From NCBI RefSeq assembly GCF_011050365.1, contig NZ_DRFV01000001.1:62001-126000 (forward strand): a stretch of DNA of 64,000 nucleotides. Direction: 5' to 3'. The stretch comes from Pseudohongiella sp. (GTDB lineage: Bacteria > Pseudomonadota > Gammaproteobacteria > Pseudomonadales > Pseudohongiellaceae). The notes under the pieces were generated by a model. It ran no database searches and had not been told where the DNA came from. It saw only the letters and a program-made list of their open reading frames with translations. Shown piece by piece: positions 6,485 to 57,598 of this stretch. The position numbers and the translations under genes are program-made. How positions within the stretch are numbered: position 1 is the stretch's first letter; each line of letters opens with the position of its first letter.

Positions 6485-8239
6485 ATGAATACCGAGAGCC
6501 ATTCCCAGACAGCCACCTTCCTCTGGTCAGTTGCCGACCTCTTGCGCGGAGACTTTAGACAATCCCAGTACGGCCGCATTATTCTGCCCTTTACCGTGCT
6601 GCGGCGCATGGAGTGCGTGCTGCAGGGCACCAAGGGCAAGGTTCTGGATACCGCCAAGGAGCATCGAAACAAGTCAGACTCCGTTCGCGAGCAGCTGCTG
6701 TTAAGAGCCTCTGGAAACCAGTTTTTCAACACCTCGCCATTAAGCCTTGGTACCTTGTCGGACACACAGACCAGTGATGACCTGCTGGCCTATACGCAGG
6801 CCTTCAGCAAGGATGCTCGGGAGATCTTTGATCACTTCCACTTTGAAGACTTTGTCCAGCAGCTTTCCGCCGCTGATCTGCTGTATCAGGTCGTACAGCG
6901 CTTTGCCGCCTTTGACTTGAGCCCGGCGCATATCAGCTACTTCGGCATGGGCATTATCTTTGAGGAGCTAATCCGCAAGTTTGCGGAGAGCTCGAATGAG
7001 ACAGCAGGTGAGCATTTCACGCCTCGCGACATCGTGCATTTGGCAACCTCGCTGGTGATTACCGGCCAGGATGAGAAGCTCAAGCCCAACAAAATCGTCA
7101 CCATCTACGATCCAACGGCCGGGACTGGCGGCTTCCTGTCAGAAGGCGATGAGTACATACAGACGATCAGTGAAAAGGTGACGGTGTCCTTATCTGGCCA
7201 GGAGCTTAATCCGGAATCCTACGCCATCTGTAAGGCAGACATGCTGATCAAAGGGCAGGACATCAGCAAGATCAGGCTGGGCAATACCCTCTCCGACGAT
7301 CAGCTTGCCGGTGAGCGTTTTGATTTTATGCTGAGTAACCCTCCCTTCGGTGTTGAGTGGAAAAAGGTACAGAAGCAGATCATCGATGAGCACAAGCGCA
7401 TGGGTCACGATGGCCGGTTCGGACCAGGCTTGCCGCGTGTATCCGATGGCTCGCTGCTGTTCCTATTGCATCTGGTCAGCAAGATGCGCGATCCGCACGA
7501 TGGCGGATCACGTATTGGCATTATCCTTAACGGCTCGCCCTTGTTTACCGGCGGGGCGGGTAGTGGTGAATCTGAGATCCGCCGCTACCTGCTGCAGCAC
7601 GACTACGTGGAAGCCATCGTGTCGCTGCCCAGCGATATGTTCTACAACACCGGCATCGCGACCTATATATGGCTGCTCTCCAACAACAAGTCGAAAGAAC
7701 GCAAGCGCAAGGTGCAGTTAATCGATGGCACTCAGCACTTCAGCAAGATGCGCAAGTCGCTGGGCAGCAAACGCCAGTACATCAATGACGATCAGATCGA
7801 TGACCTGGTGCGCCTGTATGGCCGCTATGAAGAAACACCAGAGAGCAAGATCTTCCCTCTGGAAGCGTTTGGTTATCGCCGCATCACCGTGGAGCGCCCC
7901 TTGCGCGACGAGCAGGGCAATGTCGTGGTGGCTCAGAAAGGCAAGAACAAAGGCAAGCCTGAAGCAGACAGCAGTCTTCGCGATAACGAGAATGTGCCAC
8001 TGGGGCAGTCCATCTACGAATATTTCGAGCGCGAAGTGAAACCCCATGTGCCTGATGCCTGGATTGATGAGACAAAAACCGATTCGTTGGATGGGGAGGT
8101 AGGCATTGTAGGTTTCGAGATTCCATTCAATCGGTACTTCTATGTGTTCAAACCGCCACGCCCGTTGGAAGAAATCGATGCTGACTTGAAGCTATGTACC
8201 GACCGAATCAAGCAGATGATTGAGGAGTTGTCAGCGTGA
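6485..8239 (+). CDS. hsdM: Type I restriction-modification DNA methyltransferase subunit
   Basis: HsdM methylates adenine in the recognition sequence using S-adenosylmethionine and is part of the M2S methylase and R2M2S nuclease complexes. The 584-residue protein has a helical N-terminal domain ([18 protein letters not shown]). The SAM-binding motif [10 protein letters not shown] is at about 209-217, and the adenine-methylase motif IV NPPF is at about 285-288. ATG 6485 is chosen because the conserved N-terminus [11 protein letters not shown] follows it; the frame is open further up to TTG 6371. The stop overlaps the hsdS start by 4 bases (GTGA), so the two are translationally coupled. All family landmarks are intact, and the complete M-S-R set suggests an active system. 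Confidence 0.95.
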
Positions 8240-9591
8240 GTTTTCCGAGATACCCCCAATACAAGAATTCTGGGGTTCCATGGATTAGCGATATGCCGCA
8301 CGAATGGACTAGAACGTATTTAAAGCATGTTGCTCATATTAACATGGGGCAGTCACCTGCTTCGAAAGATTGCAATGCAGATGGCATAGGGACGCCCTTC
8401 CTCCAAGGCAATGGGGAGTTTGATACAACATACCCATCAGCAAAGCAATATTGTCCTGTGGCCAGGAAACTAGCGGACAGGGGAGATATCTTGTTTTCAG
8501 TGCGTGCGCCTGTGGGAGCTTTAAATCTAGCAGACCGTGTCTATGGTATCGGACGTGGCCTGTGTGCAATCAAATCATTGGAAGGTATATCTAAAGGTTT
8601 TTTACGGTGGTTTCTATCTTCCTCCCAATCATTCCTTGATTCTGTCTCAACTGGTAGCACTTTTGAAGCTGTGTCTGCAGAGCAAATTGAGAATATGGTT
8701 TTAGCTCTGCCGCCTACTGAACAGGAGCAAACCCAAATCACCCGCTTCTTAGACCTCGAAACCGCCCGCATCGACGCCCTGATCGAACAGCAGCAGCGCC
8801 TGATGGAACTGCTCAAGGAAAAGCGCCAGGCCGTGATCTCTCATGCCGTCACGAAAGGCCTCGACCCAACCGTACCGATGAGGGATTCCGGGGTGGAGTG
8901 GCTTGGGGAAGTGCCGGTGCTTTGGGACGTTATGCCTAGCAAATATATCTTTGATTTTGTGACAAGTGGCTCGAGAGGCTGGGCTGAGTTCTATTCAGAT
9001 GAGGGTGACTTGTTCTTCAGAATTACAAACTTAACTAGAGACTCAATTGAGCCGAAATTGGAGTCTATTCAGTACGTGATGCCACCTAGTAATTCTGAGG
9101 GGGAGCGCTCCAGAATCAGACTTGGTGACATTCTTATATCGATCACTGCGGATCTAGGTTCCGTATGTGTTGCTGACCAATCAATTGAGTCAGGCTATGT
9201 CAGCCAGCACATCGCCCTTGCAAGACCGAATTTTAATCTATGTGCTAGTCGTTGGATTGGATATCTGGTCCTTAGCACGCCAACAAAAGAACAGCTTGTC
9301 GGCGCTGGTTATGGCGGCACCAAGGTCCAATTAAACTTGGATGATATTAAGACTTTTTTTCTAGCTGTTCCTTCGCTGGATGAACAAAAGAAAATTGTTC
9401 GATTCTTGGACGCCGAGATTGAGAAGTTTGACTCGTTAATCTATGAAGCTACCCGAGGCGTTAGCTTATTAGCCGAGCGCCGCTCCGCCTTAATCTCCGC
9501 CGCCGTCACCGGAAAAATTGACGTCCGCAACTGGCAACCACCAGCGCCTGAATCAGAACAAGAAGCACAGCAGGAGCTTGCGCATGGCTGA
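8236..9591 (+). CDS. hsdS: Type I restriction-modification specificity subunit
   Basis: HsdS determines the bipartite DNA target of the type I enzyme. The 451-residue protein shows the usual two target-recognition domains (about 15-155 and 220-370). Each starts with a SGVxWxxxxPxxW-type segment ([14 protein letters not shown] and [14 protein letters not shown]) and ends in a coiled-coil conserved region ([19 protein letters not shown] and [15 protein letters not shown]). The start is GTG 8236 inside the hsdM stop. The C-terminus overlaps hsdR by 8 bases. The two target-recognition domains have lower GC than the conserved helices, which is typical of variable domains exchanged by recombination. 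The target sequence cannot be predicted from this. Confidence 0.95.
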
Positions 9592-41484: not shown

Positions 41485-44229
<2,745 letters not shown>

Positions 44230-44428
44230 GGTTCCCGGGTTCTTAAATCAGCAGAAGATGTCGATGTGCGCCTTCCTGGCAACTGAGAGGCAGTCTGGCG
44301 AGGGCCGCAAGGATAAAGCATGTGTCTGTTAAAATCCAGCTTACGGGAAGTTTTGACCGGGGCTTTATGTCTGCATTTGCTGGGAAGTGGCCGGTAATAT
44401 GCAGCAACTACGCGATAATGTAGTAATA

Positions 44429-45229
44429 CTACAAAGCAGGTATGCCGGAAGTGTTGGCATCGTCGCCATCAGGGTGGATAAAGTGGCCATTGCGCAGGAA
44501 GTACAGAGTCTGGTCGATAACTTCCATGCGCTGCATAATAAAGGTGTGTGTATAAGGGACTTCGATAAAGTCGTTCATGCCTTCTACTTTGGTGCTTTCT
44601 ACGCTGACTTTGCCGTCGTCCCGGTCGGGGAGCGCGAGCGAGAACAGCGGGCTGATCGAGCGCGTGCCGGCGATGACGCCAAGCTCAAAATCATCAGCGG
44701 GAGGCAATTGCAGGGGGACACTGTTGCTGCCGGTGCCCAGTTGCAGCGCCGGTTCGCCACTGAACAGCTCAAACCCGGGCATGCTGCCAAAAACGTCTAT
44801 CACCTCGCTGCCCCGGTTGGGCGGTGCCAACATGACAACGCGGCCGAGCTTGTTGATGGATTTCCGTGCCAGATAATGTCTGACCAGTATGCCGCCCAGC
44901 GAGTGGGTGGTGAAATGAATTTTTCGCACCAGATCCTGTTCACACTGCGCGATGCCTGCTTCAACGGCGACATCGGCGAGTTCTTCAATGCTGTGGTGAC
45001 GGGAGTCATAGTAGGTGTTGGCAACCGAATAACCATTTTCCAGAAGCTCCTGCTGCAGGCGTTTCATGGAAAAATCGGTGCGGCTGAGGCCGTGTAACAA
45101 AACTACGCATTCGGGGCCATCCGCCCGCGCCAGCGTCGGCAGCACCGTGCCGGCGGTCAGCAGGCAGAGCAGCAACAGTCGCTGCGCGCTTGCCAGGCTG
45201 CTTATGGCATTGCTGGCGGTTCTGATCAT
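44429..45229 (-). CDS. Exported lipase-like alpha/beta hydrolase
   Basis: The 266-residue protein begins with a signal peptide (RLLLLCLLTAGTVLPTLARA, cleavage about 35-36). The mature part has the lipase fold: the oxyanion segment VVLLHGLSRTD near 43-53, the nucleophile elbow THSLGG near 110-115 (Ser), and an acid/His near the C-terminus (YTHTF). It is probably a periplasmic or secreted esterase or lipase. It lies between ppdK and the slipin gene on the same strand, 21 bases after the latter's stop, so it may share its transcript. A small palindrome (tgtagta-a-tactaca, 44419-44433) overlaps its stop codon. Confidence 0.8.
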   Translation of the reverse strand: MIRTASNAISSLASAQRLLLLCLLTAGTVLPTLARADGPECVVLLHGLSRTDFSMKRLQQELLENGYSVANTYYDSRHHSIEELADVAVEAGIAQCEQDLVRKIHFTTHSLGGILVRHYLARKSINKLGRVVMLAPPNRGSEVIDVFGSMPGFELFSGEPALQLGTGSNSVPLQLPPADDFELGVIAGTRSISPLFSLALPDRDDGKVSVESTKVEGMNDFIEVPYTHTFIMQRMEVIDQTLYFLRNGHFIHPDGDDANTSGIPAL

Positions 45230-45250
45230 CCTGGTTGCTCTGTTCGCAGT

Positions 45251-46105
45251 TCAGTCATGCGCGTCAGGGCTGCTGTCAGCGGGCGCGGCTGCTTTGTCGG
45301 CCGGTTTTTGCTGCTGCGGCGCGGGTGAGGCGCCGGGCCCGGCTCCGGTTTCCTGTAGCGTGGCGCCAAGCCGGCCGAGCCCTTCCATGATGTTCATGGG
45401 CAGCGGGAAAATGATGGTCGAATTCTGTTCCCCGGCGATTTCGGTCAGTGTCTGCAGGTAGCGCAGCTGGATTGATGCCGGCTGCGTGGCCAGCTGTTTG
45501 GCCGCTTCCACCAGCTTCTGCGAGGCCTCGAACTCGCCCTGGGCATGAATCACCTTGGCGCGTCGCGACCGCTCGGCTTCCGCCTGCTGTGCAATCGCAC
45601 GAATCATGCTTTCATCGATATCGACATGTTTGATTTCAACATTGGAGACCTTGATGCCCCAGCTGTCGGTCATTTCATCCAGAATGTCCTGAACGTCGCG
45701 GTTCAGACGCTCGCGCTCGGACAGCAGTTCATCCAGTTCGTGCTGCCCCAGCACGGATCGCAAGGTGGTCTGCGCCAGCTGGCTGGTGGCTTCCATGAAA
45801 TCCTCGACATTGATGACTGCTTTTTGCGGATCAACAACGCGGAAATACAGCACCGCATTCACCTTGACCGACACATTGTCCTTGGTGATCAGGTCCTGTG
45901 ACGGGATATCCCAGACCGCTGTCCGCAAGCTGATTCTGACCATCTGCTGGATGACCGGGATCACGATGATCAGCCCGGGGCCCTTGACGGTCTGAAAGCG
46001 ACCGAGCATGAAAATCACGCCGCGCTCGTATTCCTTGAGGATATTGAAGGTGCTGAACAACAGGCCGATGACGATGGCCGCCAGTACCAGGCTGAAAATT
46101 TCCAT
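45251..46105 (-). CDS. Slipin, stomatin-like SPFH membrane protein
   Basis: The 284-residue protein has an N-terminal membrane anchor ([21 protein letters not shown]), an SPFH domain ([34 protein letters not shown]) and a C-terminal coiled coil ([31 protein letters not shown] in part). The tail is Pro/Ala-rich. Slipins form membrane microdomains and are cleaved by the partner NfeD protease. The NfeD-family gene lies directly upstream, and the two probably form an operon. Confidence 0.9.
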
Positions 46106-46138
46106 AACAACTCCGTCAATGCGTGTGGGGGTGAATGC

Positions 46139-47497
46139 TCAGGTCGGGTCCTGTTTGCTGACATGCAGGGTCAGGCCATTGATCTGATCGATGCGCAATC
46201 TGTCACCTTTGTGGACCGGTGTGCCGGTTTGGGCGGTCCAGGTTTCGCCGCTGACATGGACATGGCCTTCATGTGCAAAGTCTTCCATGGCCACTGCGGT
46301 CATCTGTAGCATTGCCGGGTCGCCGGTCACCGTTGGCTGGCGCCACGCCTTCAGTGCCGCACCCAGCACCATGATGATCAGGCCGCCGGTTGCCACCGTG
46401 ACTGCGGCGATCAGTGGCAGCGAGATCTGCCAGGCTGCCGACTCTGTGTCCATCAGCATCACCGAGCCTATCACAAAGGCTGCCAGCCCACCCAGACCAA
46501 AGACTCCAAAGCTGGGCGAGATCACTTCGAACACGATCAGTCCGATGCCGACCGCCATCAGGGCCAGGCCGGCGTAGCTGATAGGTAGTAACTGCAGAGC
46601 ATAGGCGCCGACCAGCAGGCAGATGATGCCGGTAATGCCGGGCAGCCCCAGTCCGGGGTTGTAGAACTCGAGAATCAGGCCGTAAACGCCGATCATCAGC
46701 AGGATATAGGCAATATTCGGGTTGGTGATAACATTGAGGAAGTCGTGTCGCCAGTCGGACTCAATGAGGGTGATATCGGCGTTGTCGACGTTAACGCTGA
46801 GTGTGCCGCGGGTCGTCTCCACGCGCAGACCGCTGGCGGCCTGCAGCAGTTCATCCAGATCGTTGGCGATCAGGTCAATAACGTCCTGTGCCAGTGCATC
46901 CGGGGCGGTCAGGTTGGCGGCATCGGCAACTGTCTGCGAGGCCCAGGCGGTGTTGCGTCCGCGCAGCTCCTGTAAACCCTCAAGATAGGCAGTGGCGTCG
47001 TTAATGGCTTTTTGTCCGGTCGCCGATGTCTGGGTGTCGGCGTCAGCCAGGCTCACGGGCGTAGAAGAGCCGATATTGGTTGCCGGTGACATCGCCGCGA
47101 TATGGCTCGCGGCCGTTATGTAGGCGCCGGCGCTGGCGGCCCGGGCGCCCGCTGGCGCGACCCAGGTGGCCACAGGCACCGGGGAATCGAGAATTGCGCT
47201 GACAATGTCGCGCATGGAGCTGTCGAGGCCACCGGGGGTATTCATGCGCAAAACCAGCAGTGCGACATCAGCTTCTGCGGCCCGCTCCAGCACACGTTGA
47301 ATGTGGTCTGACGTGGCCGGGCCCACCGGGCCGTCCAGATCTGTCAGCCAGACCTGGGGCGGTGCCGATTGGGTTTGCGCGGTCAGCGTTGTTGCAGCGC
47401 TCAATGACAGTAGCAGTGCCAGTAAAATGAACGGCATCAGGCGCGAGCCACGGGAGCCCCGCCGCGGTTGTCTGGCATACTTGCTTAACAGGTGCAT
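46139..47497 (-). CDS. NfeD-family membrane serine protease
   Basis: The protein has about 452 residues. A signal peptide/membrane segment (LMPFILLALLLSLSAATTLT) is followed by a ClpP-class protease domain, in which ASAGAYI carries the catalytic serine and WVAPAGARA precedes it. Then come several membrane helices (about 245-375) and a soluble OB-fold C-terminus (VSGETWTAQTGTPVHKGDRLRI). Such long NfeD proteins cleave slipin C-termini. The start is uncertain: ATG 47497 gives the best N-terminus, with ATG 47509, 47539 and 47437 as alternatives. A TATTAT at 47521-47516 may be its -10 and would argue against the longest form. Confidence 0.85.
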   Translation of the reverse strand: MHLLSKYARQPRRGSRGSRLMPFILLALLLSLSAATTLTAQTQSAPPQVWLTDLDGPVGPATSDHIQRVLERAAEADVALLVLRMNTPGGLDSSMRDIVSAILDSPVPVATWVAPAGARAASAGAYITAASHIAAMSPATNIGSSTPVSLADADTQTSATGQKAINDATAYLEGLQELRGRNTAWASQTVADAANLTAPDALAQDVIDLIANDLDELLQAASGLRVETTRGTLSVNVDNADITLIESDWRHDFLNVITNPNIAYILLMIGVYGLILEFYNPGLGLPGITGIICLLVGAYALQLLPISYAGLALMAVGIGLIVFEVISPSFGVFGLGGLAAFVIGSVMLMDTESAAWQISLPLIAAVTVATGGLIIMVLGAALKAWRQPTVTGDPAMLQMTAVAMEDFAHEGHVHVSGETWTAQTGTPVHKGDRLRIDQINGLTLHVSKQDPT

Positions 47498-47743
47498 TAT
47501 GCTTGGCATAAGCGCATAATACGCCCGTATTTGAGGCAAGTCGAATAAGCTGTTTGCGCCGTAACCGACACACTTTGTTGCAAAAATGGCATGGCAAACG
47601 TTGTACTAGTTCGAAAACTTGGTTTACGATCCGTCGCAATGCTGAAAACCAATGATGCAGATACAAGACAGAAGGTGGTAGTTGTTGTCAGGGATAGTCT
47701 CTGCCAGCGTTCAGCCGCTAAACCCTGCGGGAGGAATTGCATA

Positions 47744-48703
47744 ATGAAGAAAACCAGTATCGCTATGCTCGCTATGGCAGCTGCAGTAAGCTTTCAGGCT
47801 AACGCAGCTACCGGCGTTGACCCACTGACTGAAGTACAGCCAGTGGATGCCGAGTGGTTCTATAATGGCTCTGAGCCGGACCACATTGTTGAAGTTCCCA
47901 GTTTCAACGTTCCTGCAACCGGTGTTATCGACTACATCGACTCCGTTATTCCTCTGGAATTCGGCGAAGAGAAGTGGGTGAAAGCGGTTCAGTTCATTCC
48001 AGGTGACAAGCGCGTTCTTCACCACCTGTTGAGCTACGTTGTAGCCGATACGCCCGATGCTGGCGAAGGCATGCTCGACGAGACTGTTAACGATCCGCGT
48101 CGTGAATTCCTGGAAGGTTATGCACCTGGTAAGGAATACGCCACTGAGTTCCCCGAAAACACAGGTATCAAGGTACCTGAGGGTTCAGCTCTGCGTATGA
48201 GCATTCACTACACCTCTTTCGGTCAGGAAACGACTGACAGCACTCGTGTAGGTCTGTGGTTCGCTGACGAGAACGCAACGCCAGAGCGTGAATACCACAC
48301 GTACTCTGTTGCCACTCCGATGAACCAGATCCAGATCCCGGCTGGTGCCAGAAACCATGAAGCATCTGCTTCACATGTGTTCGATGACGACATCATGCTG
48401 TACGGTTTCCGTGCTCACATGCACTACCGTGGCAAAGCAATGAGCGCGCGTGTTGTGTACCCGGACAACTCGTCCGAGGACCTGATCAACGTAGCTGATT
48501 ACAACTTTGCATGGCAGCCGACTTACCGCTTCGATGAGCCGATGGTTCTGCCAGCTGGTTCACGCGTAGTCGTGGAAGGTCTGTTTGACAACTCTCAGTA
48601 CAACCTGGGCGTTCCTGATCCAACCGTGGATGCAATGGGCGGCCTGCAGAGCTGGGAAGAAATGTTCATCGGTTACTTCTCTTACACTGACGTTCCTGAG
48701 TAA
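47744..48703 (+). CDS. Exported PHM-like copper monooxygenase, paralogue 1
   Basis: The 319-residue protein has a signal peptide (MKKTSIAMLAMAAAVSFQANA). It shows both copper sites of the peptidylglycine alpha-hydroxylating monooxygenase/dopamine beta-monooxygenase family: H93-H94 (VLHHLLSY) and H155 (MSIHYTS) for CuH, and H225-x-H227 (RAHMHYRG) and M307 (WEEMFIGYF) for CuM. Spacings of 61 and 70 residues resemble those in mammalian PHM. Such enzymes hydroxylate a C-H bond using O2 and copper, but the bacterial substrate is unknown. Start ATG 47744 follows GGGAGGAA. A strong terminator follows. Two close paralogues lie 1.4 and 2.6 kb downstream. Confidence 0.85.
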   Translation: MKKTSIAMLAMAAAVSFQANAATGVDPLTEVQPVDAEWFYNGSEPDHIVEVPSFNVPATGVIDYIDSVIPLEFGEEKWVKAVQFIPGDKRVLHHLLSYVVADTPDAGEGMLDETVNDPRREFLEGYAPGKEYATEFPENTGIKVPEGSALRMSIHYTSFGQETTDSTRVGLWFADENATPEREYHTYSVATPMNQIQIPAGARNHEASASHVFDDDIMLYGFRAHMHYRGKAMSARVVYPDNSSEDLINVADYNFAWQPTYRFDEPMVLPAGSRVVVEGLFDNSQYNLGVPDPTVDAMGGLQSWEEMFIGYFSYTDVPE

Positions 48704-48745
48704 CTGTCAGCTGTTTGCAAGTAATTGATTGAGCAGCACAAGATC

Positions 48746-48780
48746 AAAAAGGGCTGCTTCCCTGAGAAGCAGCCCTTTTT
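48746..48780 (+). terminator. Terminator after PHM-like gene 1
   Basis: Perfect stem aaaaagggctgcttc/gaagcagcccttttt with a five-base loop cctga. The remaining 48781-49064 upstream of the next gene holds no gene or clear structure; it is AT-rich and must carry the promoter of the redoxin/cytochrome gene. Confidence 0.92.
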
Positions 48781-49064
48781 GTTTCTGCGCGAAAAGTATT
48801 TTAGATTGCACGTGTTTTAAACTGCCATAAGTTTGCGTCAGATTAAGAAATGCCGTCGTGAATAACGTATACTTGGCAACCTGATCTTTTGTTGTGCCTG
48901 AGTTTGGATTAAAGAGCTTTGCAGGACAGATTTTAATTCAGGTTGTATTAATCTAGTTGCTGTAATCTATAAGTCAGAAAAATAATATAACGTCGTGCGC
49001 CATCACCCATTTTGCTGTGGCGCTCTGCAGAATTATCCAGAGATAGTATGAGGGTTTGTTCATC

Positions 49065-49928
49065 ATGAAAAAAATTAGCTGGTTGGCGCTGGTAGCAGCT
49101 GCCGCATTCAGTATTAACGCACACGCTGCGCCAGAGCGCGTAGGCGACTTTACCCTGATCGACGATGCCGGCAAGGCCCATCAGTTGAGCAAGTATGCGT
49201 TCAACAAGGCTGTGGTTATCGTGTCGCAGGCGTCAAATTGCACCATGAACCAGGAAAACATTGCGCGTTACAAGCAGTTGCGCACAAACTGGGATCACCG
49301 TGGCGTCAGCTTCCTGATGCTGAACTCTTCAGTTGATGACGATCGTGCTGACATTCGTGCAGAAGAAGCGGTCTGGAACTATGACTTCCCGATTATGGAT
49401 GACGACGCACAGCTGGTTGCCAACGCGCTGGGCGTGACTCAGGCCGGTCAGGTTGTGGTTGTGGATCCGGTACGCATGAACGTTCTGTACCGTGGCCCGA
49501 TGCCTGCACAGTGGGCACGCGCACCACTGGGTCAGGTGCTGGAAGCTGTTGTTGCTGATGGTGCTGACTCACGTCAGATGGATACTGTGACTGTAGACAT
49601 GCCGGAAGCCGAGGGCTGTGCCCTGGACTTCCCGGTTGCCGAGCAGTACATGGCTGATGCGCCTGATTATGAGACCGAAATTGCTCCGATCCTGATCGAG
49701 CGCTGTGTCGGTTGTCACGTCGAAGGTGGTATCGGGCCGTTCGCCATGAACAGCCACATGATGATTCAGGGCTGGAGCCCGATGATTCGTGAGGTGATCA
49801 TGACCAACCGTATGCCGCCGATGCAGGTTGACCCTGCGGTGAAAAGCTTCAGCAACTCGGGCAATATCCCGACTGAAGAGCGTCAAAAGCTGATCCATTG
49901 GATCAATGCCGGTTCGCCGCGTGATTGA
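49065..49928 (+). CDS. Exported redoxin/c-type cytochrome fusion protein
   Basis: The 287-residue protein has a signal peptide (MKKISWLALVAAAAFSINAHA). Residues 25-180 form a redoxin/AhpC-like thioredoxin fold (VGDFTLIDDAGKAHQLSKY, FLMLNSS, GVTQAGQVVVVDP). It has a single cysteine, C59, in SNCTMN in place of a CxxC, so thiol-disulfide exchange is unlikely in the usual form. Residues 195-287 carry a haem-binding C214-V-G-C217-H218 and RMPPMQVDP, whose Met may be the distal ligand. In marine bacteria similar redoxin-cytochrome units occur fused to PHM domains (from memory), so this may deliver electrons or copper to the PHM-like neighbours. GAGGG precedes ATG 49065. Confidence 0.85.
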   Translation: MKKISWLALVAAAAFSINAHAAPERVGDFTLIDDAGKAHQLSKYAFNKAVVIVSQASNCTMNQENIARYKQLRTNWDHRGVSFLMLNSSVDDDRADIRAEEAVWNYDFPIMDDDAQLVANALGVTQAGQVVVVDPVRMNVLYRGPMPAQWARAPLGQVLEAVVADGADSRQMDTVTVDMPEAEGCALDFPVAEQYMADAPDYETEIAPILIERCVGCHVEGGIGPFAMNSHMMIQGWSPMIREVIMTNRMPPMQVDPAVKSFSNSGNIPTEERQKLIHWINAGSPRD

Positions 49929-49947
49929 TTGCGTGTAAGTGATTGAT

Positions 49948-49984
49948 AAAAGGGCCGTTCTTCGAAAGTGGAACGGCCCTTTTG
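49948..49984 (+). terminator. Terminator after redoxin/cytochrome gene
   Basis: Stem aaaagggccgttc/gaacggccctttt with a ten-base loop. It starts 20 bases after the stop codon and separates this gene from the second PHM-like gene. Confidence 0.9.
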
Positions 49985-50113
49985 CGTTGCTGCAGACTAC
50001 ACTTCACCTTGTAACTCAGTGTCAAAGGGTATACGCTGAAAATACCAGAAAATAAAAAAGTCAGTTCAATCAGGCCATCATGTCGATAGGCTTGAAACCT
50101 GCGAGAGGTGCTT

Positions 50114-51070
50114 ATGAAAATCAAGACGACACTAACGGCTGCAGTGGCCATTGCCGCAGGCAGTCTTGCCCACGCCGGCGTTGATCCGCTGACACAAATC
50201 CAGCCGCCACAGAGCGAATGGGTGTATGACGGCAGCGCGCCTGACCACATCGTTGATGTGCCTGCCTTCCAGGTGCCGGCCACGGGTGTAATTGACTACA
50301 TCAACACCGTTATCCCGCTGGAGTTTGAAGACGAACGCTGGGTCAAGGCTGTGCAGTTCATTCCGGGCGACAAGCGCGTGCTTCACCACCTGCTGTCTTA
50401 CGTTGTCGCTGACAACCAGGACAACGAAGGCATGATTGATGAGGCGGTGAATGATCCGCGTCGCGAGTTTCTGGAAGGTTATGCGCCTGGTAAGGAGTAT
50501 GCCACCGAGTTTCCGGAAAACACCGGTATCAAGGTGCCTACAGGCTCTGCGTTGCGCATGAGCGTGCACTATACTTCGTTTGGTCAGGAAACTGAGGACA
50601 GCACACGTGTGGGCCTGTGGTTTGCCGACAAAGATGACGAGCCGGAACTGGAATACCACACGCACTCGGTATCACCGGGTAACCGTACCGAGAACATTGT
50701 GATTCCGCCCGGCGCCATGAACCACGAAATGGCGGCAACGCATGTGTTTGAAGAAGACATCCTGTTGCGCGGTTTCCGTGCGCACATGCACTACCGTGGT
50801 AAGGCCATGGCAGCACGCGTGATCTATCCCGACAATACCTCGGAAGAGATCATCAATGTGCCGAACTATAACTTCGCCTGGCAGCCAACTTACCAGATGG
50901 AAGAGCCGATGGTGATTCCCGCTGGCTCGCGTGTCATCGTGGAAGGTCTGTTTGACAACTCCCAGTACAACCTGGGTGTACCGGACCCGACTGTGCCGGC
51001 CCTGGGCGGCCTGCAGAGCTGGGAAGAGATGTTTATCGGCTACTTCTCATACACAGACATTCCCGAGTAA
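50114..51070 (+). CDS. Exported PHM-like copper monooxygenase, paralogue 2
   Basis: The 318-residue protein has signal peptide MKIKTTLTAAVAIAAGSLAHA. The copper ligands are H91-H92, H152, H224-x-H226 and M306, all conserved relative to paralogue 1. Over the mature region it is by eye roughly three quarters or more identical to the other two copies, with most differences in surface loops (for example ADKDDEPELEYH). It has GAGAGG before ATG 50114. It is separately transcribed, with a terminator before and after. Differences near 185-200 (SPGNRTENIVI) may affect substrate choice. The substrate is unknown. Confidence 0.85.
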   Translation: MKIKTTLTAAVAIAAGSLAHAGVDPLTQIQPPQSEWVYDGSAPDHIVDVPAFQVPATGVIDYINTVIPLEFEDERWVKAVQFIPGDKRVLHHLLSYVVADNQDNEGMIDEAVNDPRREFLEGYAPGKEYATEFPENTGIKVPTGSALRMSVHYTSFGQETEDSTRVGLWFADKDDEPELEYHTHSVSPGNRTENIVIPPGAMNHEMAATHVFEEDILLRGFRAHMHYRGKAMAARVIYPDNTSEEIINVPNYNFAWQPTYQMEEPMVIPAGSRVIVEGLFDNSQYNLGVPDPTVPALGGLQSWEEMFIGYFSYTDIPE

Positions 51071-51094
51071 AATCAGGAGTCTGGTGAGTTACTC

Positions 51095-51128
51095 AAAAAG
51101 GCGGTCCAGAGATGGGCCGCCTTTTTTT
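51095..51128 (+). terminator. Terminator after PHM-like gene 2
   Basis: Stem aaaaaggcggtcc/gggccgccttttttt with loop agagat, followed by a T run. Confidence 0.9.
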
Positions 51129-51309
51129 GTCAATAGACCTGTAACATTTTATTGCAATTTGCCTCGGGCCTATATTGTTTTGCACGATTGACTGGTTTAG
51201 AGTCTGAGCTAATGCAAGGCGGTTGTATGCAGATCATAATAAAAATGACAAATAGCATCGCGGCCTACATGCGGCCGCGCCCTCACAGGTTGTGACAGGA
51301 GCCGTAATA

Positions 51310-52266
51310 ATGAAAAAAACCACGTTGTCCGCAGCACTTGTGTTGACGGCCGTCTGGGGCATGCATGCCCAGGCCGGAGTCGACCCGCTTTCCCAGATCC
51401 AGCCCCCCGCAAGCGAATGGACCCACGACGGTTCCGCGCCCGATCACATCGTTGAAGTGCCGCCATTTGCGGTACCTGCAACGGGTGTTATCGACTACAT
51501 CAATTCCGTGATTCCGCTGGAATTTGGTGAGGAGAAGTGGGTGAAGGCCGTTCAGTTTATCCCCGGCGACAAGCGTGTATTACACCATCTGCTGTCATAT
51601 GTGGTCGCCGATGATCAGAACAACGAAGGCACGATCGACGAGGCTGACAATGATCCGCGCCGCGAGTTTCTCGAAGGTTATGCCCCCGGAAAGGAGTATG
51701 CCACCCAGTTTCCCGGCAACACCGGGATCAAGGTGCCGGTTGGTTCGGCGCTGCGCATGAGCATTCACTACACGTCATTCGGCCAGGAAACCGTCGACAA
51801 TACCAAAGTTGGTTTGTGGTTCTATGATGAAAACGAGGCGCCCGAGCTGGAGTACCATACGCATTCTGTCTCCGCCAATGGCGCCGATCGCCTGGTGATT
51901 CCACCGGGTGCCATGAATCACGAAATGGCAGCCAGCCATGTTTTTGAAGACGATATCGTGCTGCATGGTTTCCGTGCTCACATGCATTACCGGGGCAAGG
52001 CGATGTCAGCACGGGTGATCTACCCGGACAACACTGTGGAAGACATCATTAACGTGGCCGACTACAACTTTGCCTGGCAGCCTACTTACCGTATGGACGA
52101 GCCGATGGTGTTGCCGGCAGGCTCCAGAGTCGTGGTCGAAGGCTTGTTCGACAACTCTAAATATAACCCGGGTAATCCGGACCCGACCGTGCCTGCCATT
52201 GGCGGACCGCAGAGCTGGGAAGAAATGTTTATCGGCTATTTTTCTTACACAGACCTGCCGGAATAA
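51310..52266 (+). CDS. Exported PHM-like copper monooxygenase, paralogue 3
   Basis: The 318-residue protein has signal peptide MKKTTLSAALVLTAVWGMHAQA. The copper ligands are H92-H93, H153, H224-x-H226 and M306. It differs from the others at YDENEAPELEYH and in the C-terminal loop KYNPGNPDPTVPAIGGP. AGGAG (51297-51301) precedes ATG 51310. With its own promoter region (51129-51309) and terminator it is a further independent copy. Keeping both metal sites in all three copies implies each is catalytic. It ends 120 bases before the Old Yellow Enzyme gene. Confidence 0.85.
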   Translation: MKKTTLSAALVLTAVWGMHAQAGVDPLSQIQPPASEWTHDGSAPDHIVEVPPFAVPATGVIDYINSVIPLEFGEEKWVKAVQFIPGDKRVLHHLLSYVVADDQNNEGTIDEADNDPRREFLEGYAPGKEYATQFPGNTGIKVPVGSALRMSIHYTSFGQETVDNTKVGLWFYDENEAPELEYHTHSVSANGADRLVIPPGAMNHEMAASHVFEDDIVLHGFRAHMHYRGKAMSARVIYPDNTVEDIINVADYNFAWQPTYRMDEPMVLPAGSRVVVEGLFDNSKYNPGNPDPTVPAIGGPQSWEEMFIGYFSYTDLPE

Positions 52267-52306
52267 GGTAAGTTAGTAAGCTGATTCGATAAGCAGACCG
52301 AAACAA

Positions 52307-52340
52307 GAAGGCTGCTTCCTGAGCGGAGCAGCCTTTTTTT
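52307..52340 (+). terminator. Terminator after PHM-like gene 3
   Basis: Stem aaggctgctt-cc/gg-agcagcctt with loop tgagc, followed by seven T. It separates the PHM-like genes from the reductase gene. Confidence 0.9.
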
Positions 52341-52385
52341 ATGGCTGAATTTCCATTTTTACTATCTGAGTACGGGTAACAAGAC

Positions 52386-53483
52386 ATGTCGATAGATGCT
52401 TTATTGCGACCTTTTACAACACCAAAACTGAGCCTGAAGAATCGACTGCTGATGGCGCCGATGACGCGCCAGTTTTCGCCGAACGGCGTGCCAGGGGCCA
52501 ATGTTGTTGATTACTACCGCCGTCGCGCTGAAGGTGACGTTGGCCTGATCATCACCGAAGGCACAACGGTGGGCCATAAAGCTGCGTCATTCGATGCCTC
52601 TATCCCGAACTTCCATACCGATGAGGCGCTGGCTGGATGGGCCGAAGTGGTCAAAGCTGTCCACGCCGCCGGTGGCAAGATTGCGCCGCAGTTGTGGCAT
52701 GTCGGTTGTGCCCGCAAACCAGGATCCGGGCCGTTCCCGGATTATCCCAGTGCCACGCCATCAGGCTTTGCCCTGCCTGGCAAAAAAGTGGGCGAGCCGC
52801 TGAGCACAGCGGAAATCGACGATATCGTGAAAGCCTTTGGTGATGCTGGTCGTAATGCCAAAACCCTCGGCTTCGATGCGCTGGAGATTCACGGCGCGCA
52901 TGGCTACATGATTGATGACTTCCTGTGGGAAGGTCTGAACACGCGTGATGACAAATACGGCGGCTCGCGTGCCAAGCGTAGTCAGTTTGCCGTAGAAATT
53001 GTGCAGGCAATTCGTGCCGAAGTGGGTGAGGACTTCCCCATCATTTTCCGCTTTTCACAGTGGAAACAGCAGGATTATGATGCACGCCTGGCGACCACGC
53101 CTGAGGAGCTGATGGAAGTTCTGGCGCCTATTTCTGATGCCGGCGTTGATATATTCCATTGCAGTCAGCGTCGATTCTGGGAGCCGGAGTTTGAGGGCTC
53201 AACCCTGAATCTGGCGGGCTGGACTCGCAAGCTGCTGAACAAGCCGACGATTACTGTGGGCAGTGTCAGTTTGAACGAGGAATTCATTACTACCTTTATG
53301 GGTGGGGAAGCGGGTAGCGCCGATATCGGTGAGCTGCTGCAACGCATGGAAGCGGACGAGTTTGACCTGGTTGCTGTGGGTCGGGCATTGATCGCTAATC
53401 CGGACTGGCTCAAGCAGGTGCAACAGGGTGATGTTTCGTCCCTGAAAACTTACGATAAATCCTTGTTGGCTGCGCTCGCTTAA
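52386..53483 (+). CDS. NADH:flavin oxidoreductase, Old Yellow Enzyme family
   Basis: The 365-residue FMN-dependent (beta/alpha)8-barrel enzyme reduces activated C=C bonds or demethylates N-methyl compounds. Visible are PKLSLKNRLLMAPMTRQFS at the N-terminus, GLIITEGTTVG, PQLWHVG (substrate-binding region), ALEIHGAHGYMIDDFLW near 160-175 and VGRALIANPDW near the C-terminus. No fused flavodoxin or Fe-S domain is present, so it is a classical single-domain member. It lies 38 bases before the BCCT transporter and may share its transcript. Confidence 0.92.
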   Translation: MSIDALLRPFTTPKLSLKNRLLMAPMTRQFSPNGVPGANVVDYYRRRAEGDVGLIITEGTTVGHKAASFDASIPNFHTDEALAGWAEVVKAVHAAGGKIAPQLWHVGCARKPGSGPFPDYPSATPSGFALPGKKVGEPLSTAEIDDIVKAFGDAGRNAKTLGFDALEIHGAHGYMIDDFLWEGLNTRDDKYGGSRAKRSQFAVEIVQAIRAEVGEDFPIIFRFSQWKQQDYDARLATTPEELMEVLAPISDAGVDIFHCSQRRFWEPEFEGSTLNLAGWTRKLLNKPTITVGSVSLNEEFITTFMGGEAGSADIGELLQRMEADEFDLVAVGRALIANPDWLKQVQQGDVSSLKTYDKSLLAALA

Positions 53484-53521
53484 GAGCGCAACTGGTAGCA
53501 GAAAAACAAAAACGGAGAACG

Positions 53522-55135
53522 ATGATGTTTGATCGATTAGCCGGATTTTTGGGTCTGAATGCCATTCCCCAGATATTCTTCAGTGCAGCAGGCATAGCGA
53601 TACTGTTTGTCTGCCTTGCTATCCCTTTCAACAGTGAGTTCGCGGCGTTTTTTGGCGCCGTGGGCACATTTACATTTCAGTACTTTGGCTGGTTCTATGT
53701 GCTCAGCGTCAGTGGTCTGCTTATCTTTCTGGTCTGGCTGGCGCTGAGTCGTTACGGTCATGTCAGGCTCGGCCCCGATGATGAGGGGCCGGAGTATCCC
53801 ACCGTCACCTGGTTTGCCATGCTGTTTGCAGCGGGTATCGGTACCATCCTGATGTTCTGGGGCGTGGCCGAGCCCCTGTCGCATTTTGCCAATCCGCCTA
53901 TTGAGGGGGTAGAGGCCGGTACTGTTGATGCGGCAAAAAATGCGATGAATATCGCGCTGTATCATTTTGGTTTGCACACCTGGACCATCTTCACCCTGCC
54001 GGCGTTGGCGATCGCCTACTTTACCTATCGTCAGGGTCTGCCGATGCGAATCAGCAGTATCTTTTATCCGGTTGTGGGCGACAAAATATTTGGCCCGCTG
54101 GGGTGGGCTATTGATGTGATCGCCTTGCTGGGCACCCTGTTTGGTGTGGCGGTCTCGGTCGGGCTGGGGACACTGCAATTGAACAGTGGGCTCAATGCCG
54201 TGCTGGGTGTGCCCATCAGTCAGCTGTCACAGCTGCTCATTGTGGTGGTGATCACGGCGGTGGCCACTGTGTCTGTGGCGCTGGGGCTGGACCGCGGCAT
54301 CAAGCGCCTGTCGGAATTCAATATCGTGCTGGCACTGATCGTGATGCTGTTTGTCTGGCTGGCCGGCCCGACGCTGTTTATCACCTCCGGCATTGTGCAG
54401 AATTTTGGTAACTACATGCAGAACCTGCCGTGGATGTCATTCTGGACCGAAGCCTATCAGGGTACCAGCTGGCAGCAGAGCTGGACGGTGTTTTACTGGG
54501 CATGGACGATTTCCTGGGCGCCGTATGTGGGCATTTTTATAGCACGCATCTCCAAAGGTCGTACCATTCGCCAGTTTGTCGGTGGTGCTCTGGGCGCACC
54601 CTTGCTGTTCACCGTGGTGTGGTTCTCGGTGTTCGGGTTGGCGGCCATGGATCTGGAGCTGAATCAGGGTGTGGATCTGACCACGCAGGTGCAGGCAGAT
54701 GTGTCGGTGGCATTGTTCGACTTCCTCAGCTACTTCCCGGCGTCGACGCTGATATCGGTACTGAGTCTGGTGGTTATTGTGGTGTTCCTGACCACGTCGG
54801 CTGACTCGGCGGCACTGGTGGTGGATGTGCTGTCGCGCAGTGACAAGCAGCCGAGTCTGACCTGGCAGCGTATTTTCTGGACCCTGTTGCTGGGCCTGAT
54901 CGCAGCAACGCTGTTGCTGGGTGGGGGCCTGCCGGCGCTGCAGAACGTCATCACCACGCTCGGCTTCCCGTTCTGTGTGCTACTGGTGTTCATGGCCTAT
55001 TCGTTGTTGCGCTCGCTGCACGCCGATTACCTGGGTTACACGCTGGCTGAGTCGGCAGCAGGCAAAGTGCCGCATATGGATCCGATGGGGTCCAGGCCGT
55101 CAGACAGTAAAGGCGCTTCACACCCCAAAGAATAG
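53522..55135 (+). CDS. BCCT-family betaine/carnitine/choline-type transporter
   Basis: The 537-residue secondary transporter has about twelve membrane helices. The BCCT signature region WTVFYWAWTISWAPYVGIF, followed by ARISKGRTIRQFV, lies near 325-355; its Trp-rich segment forms the quaternary-ammonium aromatic box. The N-terminus is short, and the C-terminus ends in a soluble tail, so a long osmosensory domain is absent. Start ATG 53522 (or ATG 53525) follows GGAG. With the upstream flavin reductase it may serve uptake and catabolism of a methylated amine or sulfonium compound, but that is inference. Confidence 0.92.
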   Translation: MMFDRLAGFLGLNAIPQIFFSAAGIAILFVCLAIPFNSEFAAFFGAVGTFTFQYFGWFYVLSVSGLLIFLVWLALSRYGHVRLGPDDEGPEYPTVTWFAMLFAAGIGTILMFWGVAEPLSHFANPPIEGVEAGTVDAAKNAMNIALYHFGLHTWTIFTLPALAIAYFTYRQGLPMRISSIFYPVVGDKIFGPLGWAIDVIALLGTLFGVAVSVGLGTLQLNSGLNAVLGVPISQLSQLLIVVVITAVATVSVALGLDRGIKRLSEFNIVLALIVMLFVWLAGPTLFITSGIVQNFGNYMQNLPWMSFWTEAYQGTSWQQSWTVFYWAWTISWAPYVGIFIARISKGRTIRQFVGGALGAPLLFTVVWFSVFGLAAMDLELNQGVDLTTQVQADVSVALFDFLSYFPASTLISVLSLVVIVVFLTTSADSAALVVDVLSRSDKQPSLTWQRIFWTLLLGLIAATLLLGGGLPALQNVITTLGFPFCVLLVFMAYSLLRSLHADYLGYTLAESAAGKVPHMDPMGSRPSDSKGASHPKE

Positions 55136-55141
55136 GTTTCA

Positions 55142-57325
55142 TCAATAGCCTGCTAGAGCGCGCAACAACCAGACCTGATGAATGCGGGTGTTGCGTGCGA
55201 AATCCCTGTCGATGCTGGCGGCAGAAAAAGCTTCGATGGTAAATCGCTCCGCCAGCGTCTCATCCAGTTTGAATTTGCGCATATTGGTGGAGAATATCAA
55301 CGTTCCCTGCGGACGCAGGCGTTGCATGCACAACTCAATCAACTCACCGTGGTCGCGCTGAATGTCCAGCACGTTGTCCGTGCTCTTGGAATTGGAGAAC
55401 GTGGGTGGATCCAGGAAGATCAGATCAAAGTCCTGTTTGCATTTTTGCAGGTAGCGCAGGCAATCCATTTCCACCAGCTCATGGGCGCGCAGGTTCAACT
55501 GGTTCAGTTCCAGATTGCGCCTGGCCCAGCTCAGGTAAGTGTTGGACAGGTCGACACTGACCGTGCGGCGGGCGCCGCCCAGTGCGGCCTGTACGCTGAC
55601 CGAGCCGGTGTAGCAAAACAGGTTCAATACATCCTTGCCCTCAGCATGTTGATGCACGTAACGACGCATCGGGCGATGATCCAGAAATAGTCCGGTGTCC
55701 AGGTAACGTTCCAGATTGACGATCAGTCTGGCGTCGCCTTCCTGCACCACAATGTCCTGACCCTGTTCGCGAGTCGGCTGGTATTGCTGTTTGCCGCGCT
55801 GGCGTTCGCGCACCTTGATGCTGACGAATTTTGCCGGCAGCTGCATTACAACCTGCACCGCCAGCACGCTCTGGCGACGTCGTTGTTCGGCATCAATCTC
55901 GGTGACCGATGCGGGGGCTTTATATTCCTGCATGTGAATGTGACGCTGGCCATCGACGTCGGTATAGACGTCGATGGCAAAGGCGTACTCGGGCATGTCG
56001 GCATCATACAGCCGGTAGCAATCATGGCCCTGCTGCCGCGCCCAGCGGCCGATATTCTTCAGGTTCTTGCGCAGGCGGTTGGCGAGCATCTGTCCGCCGT
56101 TGTCGAGCGCGTCTTCGGTGACCAGCTGGCTATCGTCCACAGCGGTTTTGCGGGTCTGGTAAACCGATGAGTCATCCACCCGGAACAGCAATAATTTTGC
56201 CGGCAGCGCACCATTAAACAGAGCGTATTGTTTATGGCTGTGAATGCCGATCAGTTTGCCCCATTCCGGACGTGCGGTGAACACCGCAACGTCTGCGCCC
56301 ATGGCCTCGCGGCGAATGACATCGCCCAGCTCCTGGTACAGGGCCATGACTTCGGCATCGTCTCCCAGGCGTTCGGCGTACGGCGGGTTGGTGATCAGCA
56401 GCGTCGGCGGTTGGCCGAGCTTGACCTCATGCAAGGATGCCGAGGTGAATTCGATATGATCCCAGATTCCGGCGCGTTCGGCGTTACGCCGGGCCATGCC
56501 CAGTGCGCGCAGATCCTGATCGCTGCCCAGTGCCTGTCCGGTCCAGTGCGCTGCGCGCTGTTTGCGAAGCTCGGCTTCCTCGCGCACCGTTGCGGCTGCG
56601 GCCTGGTCATGGTGCGGCCAGGCGGATAACTGGCTTTCGCGTAACAGTCCGGGGGCGATGTCCAGCGCCATCAGCACCGCTTCAATCAACAGTGTGCCGG
56701 CGCCACACATGGGGTCAAAGATGCTGGCATTGTCCTGTTGCATCAGGGTTGGCCAGTTGGCGCGCATCAACAGGGCGGCGGCCAGGGTTTCCTTCATTGG
56801 CGCTTCGCCCTGTTCCTGGCGATAACCGCGCCGGTGCAGACTGCCGTCCACCAGGTCAATGCCGAGGATGACGCGGCCTTTCTTGATCACGGCATGGATG
56901 CGCAGGTCCGGGTCCTGTTTTGATACATCAGGCCGGTTCTGGCCGCTGTTGCGGAACTGGTCAACAACGGCATCCTTGATGCGCTGGGCGATGAACTGGG
57001 TGTGGTTCAGGTTGTGCGTGGTACCGGCGGCGCTGATGGCGAAGCTGTCGGTGTTGCTCATGTGCTGCGTCCAGTCGATACTGTCGGCAGCGGCGTACAG
57101 CGCATCCGCATCGGGCACCACCTGTTGGTGCAGGATCAGGATGATACGGTTGGCAATCCGGGAAAACATCACGGCCCGATAGGCTTCCAGCAGGCAACCG
57201 CTGAAATTGACGCCGGCAACGGTTTCGCGAATGTCAGTGGCACCGCATTGCCGCAGCTCCTCTGCCAACAGAGGTTCGAGGCTTTTGGCGCAGCTGGCGA
57301 AGAAAGAAAACGTACTGTCTGACAT
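55142..57325 (-). CDS. rlmKL: Bifunctional 23S rRNA methyltransferase RlmKL
   Basis: The enzyme makes m7G2069 and m2G2445 in 23S rRNA. The 727-residue protein starts at ATG 57325 (MSDSTFSFFASCAKSLEPLL), the family's usual start; the open frame continues upstream without similarity. It has a THUMP domain (about 45-160), a first methyltransferase (RlmL) with FDPMCGAGTLLIEA and ITNPPYAERLG, and a second (RlmK) with NLFCYTGSVSVQAALGGA and FLDPPTFSNSK. The length is like E. coli RlmKL (702 residues). It is convergent with the BCCT gene, with six bases between the two stops. Confidence 0.95.
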   Translation of the reverse strand: MSDSTFSFFASCAKSLEPLLAEELRQCGATDIRETVAGVNFSGCLLEAYRAVMFSRIANRIILILHQQVVPDADALYAAADSIDWTQHMSNTDSFAISAAGTTHNLNHTQFIAQRIKDAVVDQFRNSGQNRPDVSKQDPDLRIHAVIKKGRVILGIDLVDGSLHRRGYRQEQGEAPMKETLAAALLMRANWPTLMQQDNASIFDPMCGAGTLLIEAVLMALDIAPGLLRESQLSAWPHHDQAAAATVREEAELRKQRAAHWTGQALGSDQDLRALGMARRNAERAGIWDHIEFTSASLHEVKLGQPPTLLITNPPYAERLGDDAEVMALYQELGDVIRREAMGADVAVFTARPEWGKLIGIHSHKQYALFNGALPAKLLLFRVDDSSVYQTRKTAVDDSQLVTEDALDNGGQMLANRLRKNLKNIGRWARQQGHDCYRLYDADMPEYAFAIDVYTDVDGQRHIHMQEYKAPASVTEIDAEQRRRQSVLAVQVVMQLPAKFVSIKVRERQRGKQQYQPTREQGQDIVVQEGDARLIVNLERYLDTGLFLDHRPMRRYVHQHAEGKDVLNLFCYTGSVSVQAALGGARRTVSVDLSNTYLSWARRNLELNQLNLRAHELVEMDCLRYLQKCKQDFDLIFLDPPTFSNSKSTDNVLDIQRDHGELIELCMQRLRPQGTLIFSTNMRKFKLDETLAERFTIEAFSAASIDRDFARNTRIHQVWLLRALAGY

Positions 57326-57598
57326 GGGCTGAAGGTCTGTCCGGAAGTTTGGGGCGCCATGATAATACGAATTGCGTTGGAATGCCCGCCGGGGCTGCTG
57401 ACTATGCGTCGAAACTGCCTGCGAACCCTTATGGTGCAAGGCTTTTCCGGTGATTTCAAAAGCGTAGAAAATACTTTTCTTTTTGCCAGATTACTCTATT
57501 ATGCGCGTTTTATGGCGGGCACTATTGCAGGTCGAATAGTGGCCCCCGGAACGGCTGGTTTCCCCTCTTTATCGCAGTCTCCGCGGAGGAGTTCCCTG

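Follow-up and report, generated by a model that had tools for sequence, protein, structure and literature searches.

A probable PHM-type dicopper monooxygenase system with a haem c partner in Pseudohongiella

Introduction

PHM and dopamine beta-monooxygenase (DBM, also called dopamine beta-hydroxylase, DBH) are the textbook ascorbate enzymes of peptide hormone and noradrenaline synthesis in animals, and their eukaryotic members are disulfide-rich chains. Here we describe a set of four genes in a 64,000-nucleotide stretch of DNA from Pseudohongiella sp. (contig NZ_DRFV01000001.1, positions 62,001 to 126,000; the whole stretch is referred to as the window), three of which encode PHM-like proteins and one of which encodes a protein with a redoxin domain and a haem c motif. 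We consider it probable, though well short of certain, that the four genes constitute a periplasmic PHM-type dicopper monooxygenase system that is reduced by haem c instead of ascorbate.

In the available text of the respective sources, PHM and DBM are entered in the eukaryote column only (PMC7435645) and PHM is called widespread in eukaryotes (PMC8812541), while each of the PHM coppers is stated to receive one reducing equivalent from ascorbate (PMC6123673). The PAM reaction is described, in the corresponding part of PMC6529398, as that of PHM followed by that of PAL, with release of glyoxylate. The available part of a study of Pseudohongiellaceae and their sister family discusses monooxygenases and names P450, with no mention of copper (PMC8371827). 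In the literature searched, which covered few subscription papers, no title or abstract dealt with a bacterial PHM with a haem or redoxin partner, and we came across no bacterial member of PF03712 that had been characterised.

Results

Fold, copper ligands and substrate pocket

The window belongs to contig C1 of a 3.63 Mb genome. The four genes are as follows.

47744..48703, + strand: PHM-like copper monooxygenase, copy 1 (319 aa; export signal judged by eye)
49065..49928, + strand: redoxin (AhpC/TSA) with mono-haem c, probable electron donor (287 aa; export judged by eye; CxxCH at residues 214-218)
50114..51070, + strand: PHM-like copper monooxygenase, copy 2 (318 aa; export signal judged by eye)
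51310..52266, + strand: PHM-like copper monooxygenase, copy 3 (318 aa; export signal judged by eye)

The three PHM-like genes are intact, and the pairwise identities of their products are 77, 77 and 81%. A preliminary description of the window had proposed three exported paralogues of 318-319 residues carrying the six copper ligands of PHM/DBM, and this was confirmed: the HH pair begins at residue 93, 91 and 92 (copies 1, 2 and 3), the His of HYT is at 155, 152 and 153, HMH begins at 225, 224 and 224, and the Met is at 307, 306 and 306, so that copy 1 shows exactly the proposed spacings of 61, 70 and 80 residues, from which the other two deviate by at most two residues. The signal peptides were likewise recognizable by eye, since each N-terminus has a lysine followed by a hydrophobic stretch and A-x-A. 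None of the copies contains a cysteine; we hold that disulfides are not defining for these enzymes outside eukaryotes.

The preliminary description had also suggested a structural comparison with PHM. The predicted structure of copy 1, based on 28 aligned sequences, had a mean predicted local distance difference test score (pLDDT) of 86.5 and a predicted template modelling score (pTM) of 0.81. When the model was searched against the PDB with Foldseek, ranks 1-31 were all PHM or DBH (probability 1.00, E 3.5e-13 to 3.7e-9, query TM score 0.52-0.65, identity 14-19%), and the first unrelated chain followed at E 1.6e-5. The PHM-like nature of the three proteins that had been suggested is thus supported, for copy 1, at the level of the fold. 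Rat PHM (1phm/1opm) and human DBH (4zel) have their two-domain fold in common with the model over the whole length. All three copies matched the Pfam family PF03712 (Cu2_monoox_C) with 26.9, 29.1 and 27.6 bits against a cut-off of 23, and 26 of 28 aligned PHM-like sequences matched it at E <=0.1. This alignment (A3) was built from the three copies of the window together with 25 of 31 non-redundant representatives; the representatives omitted had unknown letters in their sequence, except for one that nearly duplicates copy 1 and one that bears an insert. We assign the three proteins to the PHM/DBM superfamily on the basis of the fold (copy 1), the ligands and the Pfam C-terminal domain.

The register of the ligands was examined through a bridging protein. 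A search of 398 genomes of the phylum with PF01082, the Pfam model of the N-terminal domain, returned a single match, L142, and none in the genome of the window itself. L142 (1033-2277, - strand; 414 residues) comes from a distant member of the phylum and is, by eye, a haem c-PHM fusion. It aligned to rat PHM (1opm) with E 2.8e-7, with VHH, QVHY, H-x-H and DEM matched. Counted along the alignment, the HH, H, HxH and M of L142 meet chain positions 63/64, 128, 198/200 and 270 of 1opm, which with an offset of 44 correspond to H107, H108, H172, H242, H244 and M314. We take H242, H244 and M314 to be the CuM ligands of rat PHM. The CuH ligands are given as H107, H108 and H172 in the available part of PMC6123673. 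In our alignment H93, H94, H155, H225, H227 and M307 of copy 1 occupy the ligand columns of L142, which suggests that all six ligands are in register with those of rat PHM and bears out their proposed identity as the PHM/DBM set.

Conservation of the ligands was assessed in the nearest relatives, the 76 loci (L006-L081) that hold the 80 best-scoring of 213 confirmed stretches, leaving out PHM domains of less than 250 aa. All six were kept in 155 of the 157 domains; one exception is truncated by the end of its contig, and the other, in L072, lacks the HxH pair. In the latter, a fused PHM protein (L072:9158-10861), R-x-N stands in place of the HxH of CuM, while the Met and the histidines of CuH are kept.

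Rat PHM has an Arg two residues before HxH and a Tyr four residues after the Met (R240 and Y318, counted along the alignment), which together with N316 presumably bind the carboxylate of the substrate. Arg and Tyr are present at these positions in all three copies (R223, Y311), and the position of N316 is occupied by Ile. Over the 157 domains the two positions varied together: RY was found in 114, GF in 18, AW in 9, MF in 8, LF in 4, TQ in 2 and MY in 1, with one domain cut off, counts that are inflated by related sequences. The paired changes have the look of a switch in specificity from one subfamily to another, and the copies of the window apparently stand on the PHM-like side.

The redoxin-haem c protein and its fused relatives

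The preliminary description spoke of a tandem triplication. The three copies stand, but they are not contiguous: the redoxin-haem c gene, which had been overlooked, lies between copies 1 and 2. Its product matched the AhpC/TSA domain of Pfam with 33.2 bits (cut-off 26) and has CVGCH in its C-terminal part. The model (pLDDT 86.9, pTM 0.83) showed a redoxin fold in the N-terminal part, with ResA, CcmG and TlpA among the best 50 chains listed. In an alignment of 24 such sequences (A6; L064, L046 and L075 omitted), CxxCH and the Met of RMPP were invariant (24/24), and 14 of the 24 matched PF13442 at E <=0.05 (best 3.4e-6). The active-site cysteine of the redoxin domain, which is present in the window protein as C59, was not conserved; of the two cysteines that correspond to C59 and C185, both were found in 17 rows, one in 2 and neither in 5.

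The redoxin-haem c and PHM parts form one frame, N-terminal and C-terminal respectively, in 61 of 61 loci (L021-L081), although in L073 and L079 the contig starts inside the frame, which leaves no more than the final 45-60 residues of the redoxin-haem c part visible. They are separate genes in L006-L017, L019 and L020. In the fused proteins of relatives in OM182/Pseudomonadales (such as L048 and L051), the N-terminal half is matched by the window redoxin-haem c protein and the C-terminal half by the PHM profile, and the window genes are split at the junction: the match of the window redoxin-haem c protein ends at HWI-A-G-PR, where the fused proteins enter the PHM part. The window set thus appears, from these alignments, to represent a bacterial redoxin-haem c-PHM family in a form that is split and has its PHM part in triplicate.

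In the distant L142 the CxxCH lies 45 residues from the start and is followed by an RTMPP motif and the PHM domain, so that haem c is fused to PHM with no room for a redoxin. Since CxxCH is invariant, the redoxin cysteines are not, and L142 lacks the redoxin, the constant redox element beside PHM is the haem c. As each copper of PHM takes up one reducing equivalent from ascorbate, haem c would be a natural substitute, and the presence of this gene and of its fused relatives makes it the likely electron donor.

The copies could also be true monooxygenases that draw on another reductant, with the redoxin-haem c protein serving their assembly or protection, either by Sco/TlpA-like copper delivery or by removal of peroxide. 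The redoxin/thioredoxin fold of the N-terminal domain, with the above chains among its matches, would suit such a role, and the 17 rows with both cysteines suggest a thiol/disulfide function; nevertheless, we consider it unlikely, as one or both cysteines are missing in the remaining 7 rows in which the haem motif persists, and the 45 residues before the haem motif of L142 are too few for a redoxin.

Distribution, history and constraint

The closest loci, among the best 80 of the 213 stretches, came from gammaproteobacterial assemblies (97 and 95%), followed by Pseudohongiella (<=86%). The search for the same gene set in other genomes, which had been proposed earlier, found the PHM copies together with the partner gene: the redoxin-haem c gene adjoins PHM copies in 14 of 14 congeners (L084-L095, L103, L109). 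The order PHM, redoxin-haem c, PHM, PHM was seen in all 12 loci L006-L017, with the last PHM gene either whole, truncated where the contig ends or reduced to a remnant. In L019 and L020 a PHM gene is followed by the redoxin-haem c gene, and L018, a contig of 5.6 kb, carries PHM alone.

Among 137 genomes of the family searched at E 1e-100, standalone PHM copies were present in all 15 genomes of the genus of the window, with three copies in 13 of the 15, four in G009 and two in G011. Six listed g5 genomes and one listed g7 genome have one short-frame PHM copy each, and the g4 genomes among the matches listed have one long-frame match each; two listed g5 genomes and the listed g2, g6 and g8 genomes gave no PHM match at this threshold. 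The 48 of the 137 family genomes without a PHM match are not individually listed. Across the phylum, the PHM profile was found in 4 of 397 sampled genomes, that of the window included, one of the matches being weak and containing a stop; the PHM-like branch is therefore narrow.

In a tree of 57 rows, standalone PHM (38 rows) and fused PHM (19 rows) were split by a branch with 100/100 support, and under midpoint rooting the standalone side was nested among the fused ones. This fits a history in which a fused gene was split and its PHM half then multiplied, the direction of the split being what we infer. Copy 1 formed a clade of the window and 12 loci (support 100/99) and appears to be an old separate lineage; copies 2 and 3 were less well resolved.

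Comparison with the counterparts in L007 by a simple counting method gave ratios of non-synonymous to synonymous substitution rates (dN/dS) of 0.046, 0.040 and 0.019 for copies 1, 2 and 3, at dS values of 0.65-1.07, which points to strong constraint on all three. In G004 and G011, two of the 14 congeners, the third copy is interrupted by stop codons (five in G011) and is thus not indispensable; in G005 and G006 it is partial. The broken third copies are at G004:C54:2515-3318 and G011:C21:24940-25632, and G009 has four copies instead. The selection that the preliminary description assumed to act on the copies is accordingly supported by the low dN/dS (0.02-0.05) and the age of copy 1, and is qualified by the stop-broken third copies.

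These data bear on two further explanations. Copper-binding proteins without hydroxylase function, serving storage, sensing or a different redox reaction, might be considered, as to our knowledge no activity is known for any close relative, the pocket residues vary between subfamilies and the three copies are cysteine-free. We regard this as improbable, since 155 of 157 domains retain both copper sites with their unusual Met ligand, the haem motif of the partner is invariant and the constraint is strong. The second explanation, that the triplication provides chiefly gene dose and not different substrates, is compatible with a haem c-driven monooxygenase system, and we consider it quite possible, if not quite probable. 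It agrees with the identity of R223, Y311 and all ligands among three copies that are 77-81% identical, with the loss of copy 3 to stop codons in 2 of 14 congeners and with the four copies of one congener, whereas the genus-wide clade of copy 1 implies that the copies have long been kept distinct, and each has a terminator-like hairpin of its own (see below).

Paralogues in the same genome and a PAL-like propeller

The genome of the window gave 12 matches with the 28-row PHM profile (A3) and 13 with profile A1. The 12 comprise the three copies, seven redoxin + PHM frames, a divergent relative of 510 residues and a fragment of 101 residues. One fused gene (L131:12845-14647, contig C5) clusters with genes for an NHL propeller (8137-9330), a HupE/UreJ-like and a CstA-like protein, the names being taken from similar genes identified in L034. 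Members of the three sequence clusters to which these genes belong were found in 37, 38 and 39 of the compared loci, and genes of these kinds are also the neighbours of the single-polypeptide proteins of the OM182/Pseudomonadales relatives. Two other fused genes have different surroundings. The one in L134 (contig C8, 7042-14336) lies a few kb from genes that by eye resemble those of pyrroloquinoline quinone (PQQ) biosynthesis and encode a metallo-beta-lactamase-fold protein and a radical SAM/SPASM protein, and the one in L136 (contig C16, 8613-12882) is tail to tail with a gene for a molybdopterin-binding dehydrogenase subunit.

The propeller aligned to the PAL half of rat PAM over residues 59-365 with E 1.1e-10, and five TRIM-type NHL chains scored better. 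With whole, partial and profile queries the PAL chains 3fvz/5wm0 were matched, yet always below TRIM-type NHL chains; with a short propeller piece as query, 3fvz was the only PAL chain found (E 0.12). The invariant R76, H133, Y204, H253, R268 and H350 of the propeller alignment resemble, in order and spacing, what we take to be the PAL active-site set, and 46 of the 56 proteins in the propeller cluster contain the whole of a motif pattern that we built post hoc on these residues. Our literature search found no paper that lists the PAL active-site residues; the likeness to PAL rests on overall similarity and on this resemblance. Of the 15 genomes of the genus, 13 gave a strong propeller match (E <=1e-150), as did G017, G018, G019 and G020, and weaker matches came from three genomes of the family without a PHM-like match (G015, G022, G023).

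Animal PAM combines PHM with PAL. The window cluster shares the PHM-like half and is without a propeller gene, the PAL-like propeller standing beside the fused paralogue elsewhere in the genome. The PHM-like Arg/Tyr pair and this propeller give a hint of carboxylate substrates. A PAM-like two-step chemistry in the periplasm could then be envisaged, in which the haem c-driven PHM would hydroxylate the carbon next to nitrogen in carboxylate substrates such as N-acylglycines or peptidylglycines, the propeller would cleave the product to an amide and glyoxylate, the CstA-like carrier, a relative of a pyruvate carrier, would import the oxo acid, and the three copies would serve different members of this substrate class. 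We regard this scheme as speculative and doubtful.

Expression signals and flanking genes

A terminator-like hairpin stretch follows each of the four genes.

48736..48790, + strand: hairpin stretch 3' of copy 1 (z -5.6)
49940..49995, + strand: hairpin stretch 3' of the redoxin-haem c gene (z -4.9)
51085..51140, + strand: hairpin stretch 3' of copy 2 (z -5.0)
52295..52350, + strand: hairpin stretch 3' of copy 3 (z -4.5)

All four end in U residues and are far more stable than shuffled sequences, of which 0 of 200 folded equally well for three hairpins and 1 of 200 for that of copy 3. A terminator consensus scan of the region did not return them, probably because A-T pairs in the stem consume the T tail. 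Sigma-70-like promoter sites were not above chance (6 in the region versus 4.1 +/- 1.8 in shuffles). Thus, of the promoter gap and terminator that had been claimed for each copy, the terminators hold as hairpins and the promoters do not stand out.

The flank at 41485-57439 (PPDK-like, NfeD, Band 7, flavoenzyme, BCCT carrier and RlmKL-like genes, PPDK and RlmKL being named by eye) is largely common to the genus, each gene being found in 6 to 12 loci including the window, and is therefore no marker of a pathway. The flavoenzyme (52386-53483) and the BCCT transporter (53522-55135) were considered as pathway partners and discarded as evidence, as much of the flank block is common to the genus and the PHM-redoxin pair of L019 and L020 adjoins other genes, for a DUF1456 protein and a methyltransferase.

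Discussion

In the system that we propose, with the numbering of copy 1, CuH would be bound by H93, H94 and H155 and CuM by H225, H227 and M307, and O2 at CuM would serve to hydroxylate a C-H bond in a substrate that is small or resembles a peptide. In the redoxin-haem c protein, a degenerate redoxin domain would bear a c-type haem, through which electrons from the respiratory chain would pass singly to both coppers, the role of ascorbate in animals. A single redoxin-haem c-PHM polypeptide may have been split at the domain junction, upon which the PHM half would have acquired its own signal peptide and multiplied within the genus. The proposal is based on the predicted fold, the ligand register in the alignments, the fusion in relatives and conservation; from these we infer the direction of the split, the occupancy of the copper and haem sites, electron transfer, hydroxylation and the nature of the substrate.

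Several observations weigh against this interpretation. PF01082 was unmatched in all three copies, and in 28 aligned relatives it was matched by 2 (best E 0.046); since the fold match of the model spans the N-terminal half, we take the miss to reflect a limit of the Pfam model. Neither copy 1 nor the 28-row PHM profile matched any PDB sequence up to E 1, so that the connection with PHM depends on three things: the fold, a Pfam match of modest score in the C-terminal domain and one bridging protein, L142. The divergent paralogue L138 was tried as a second bridge and rejected, as it gave a single chance match only. On the side of the partner, the haem domain of the window protein was below the Pfam cut-off (14.5 versus 27 bits), and the best 50 chains listed in its fold search were redoxin/thioredoxin-like, the haem domain not being recovered. 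Finally, a terminator-like hairpin after each gene means that co-expression as a single operon is not implied.

Compared with PHM and DBH, the window copies are bacterial, probably periplasmic, 14-19% identical and without cysteines or a PF01082 match; they have Ile at the place of N316 and a haem c partner, separate here and fused in relatives. What they share with rat PHM, besides fold and ligands, is the Arg two residues before HxH and the Tyr four residues after the Met. The haem c partner, the lack of cysteines, the separate genes and the triplication set them apart from known PHM/DBM. A search of NCBIfam up to E 1 assigned none of the three proteins to a family.

If our interpretation is true, a bacterial branch with a haem c partner would show that copper sites of this type can be driven by the respiratory chain, and its members would provide a cysteine-free model for the two-copper mechanism. 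For these little-studied marine bacteria, it would mean a periplasmic oxidation route that has no name in NCBIfam.

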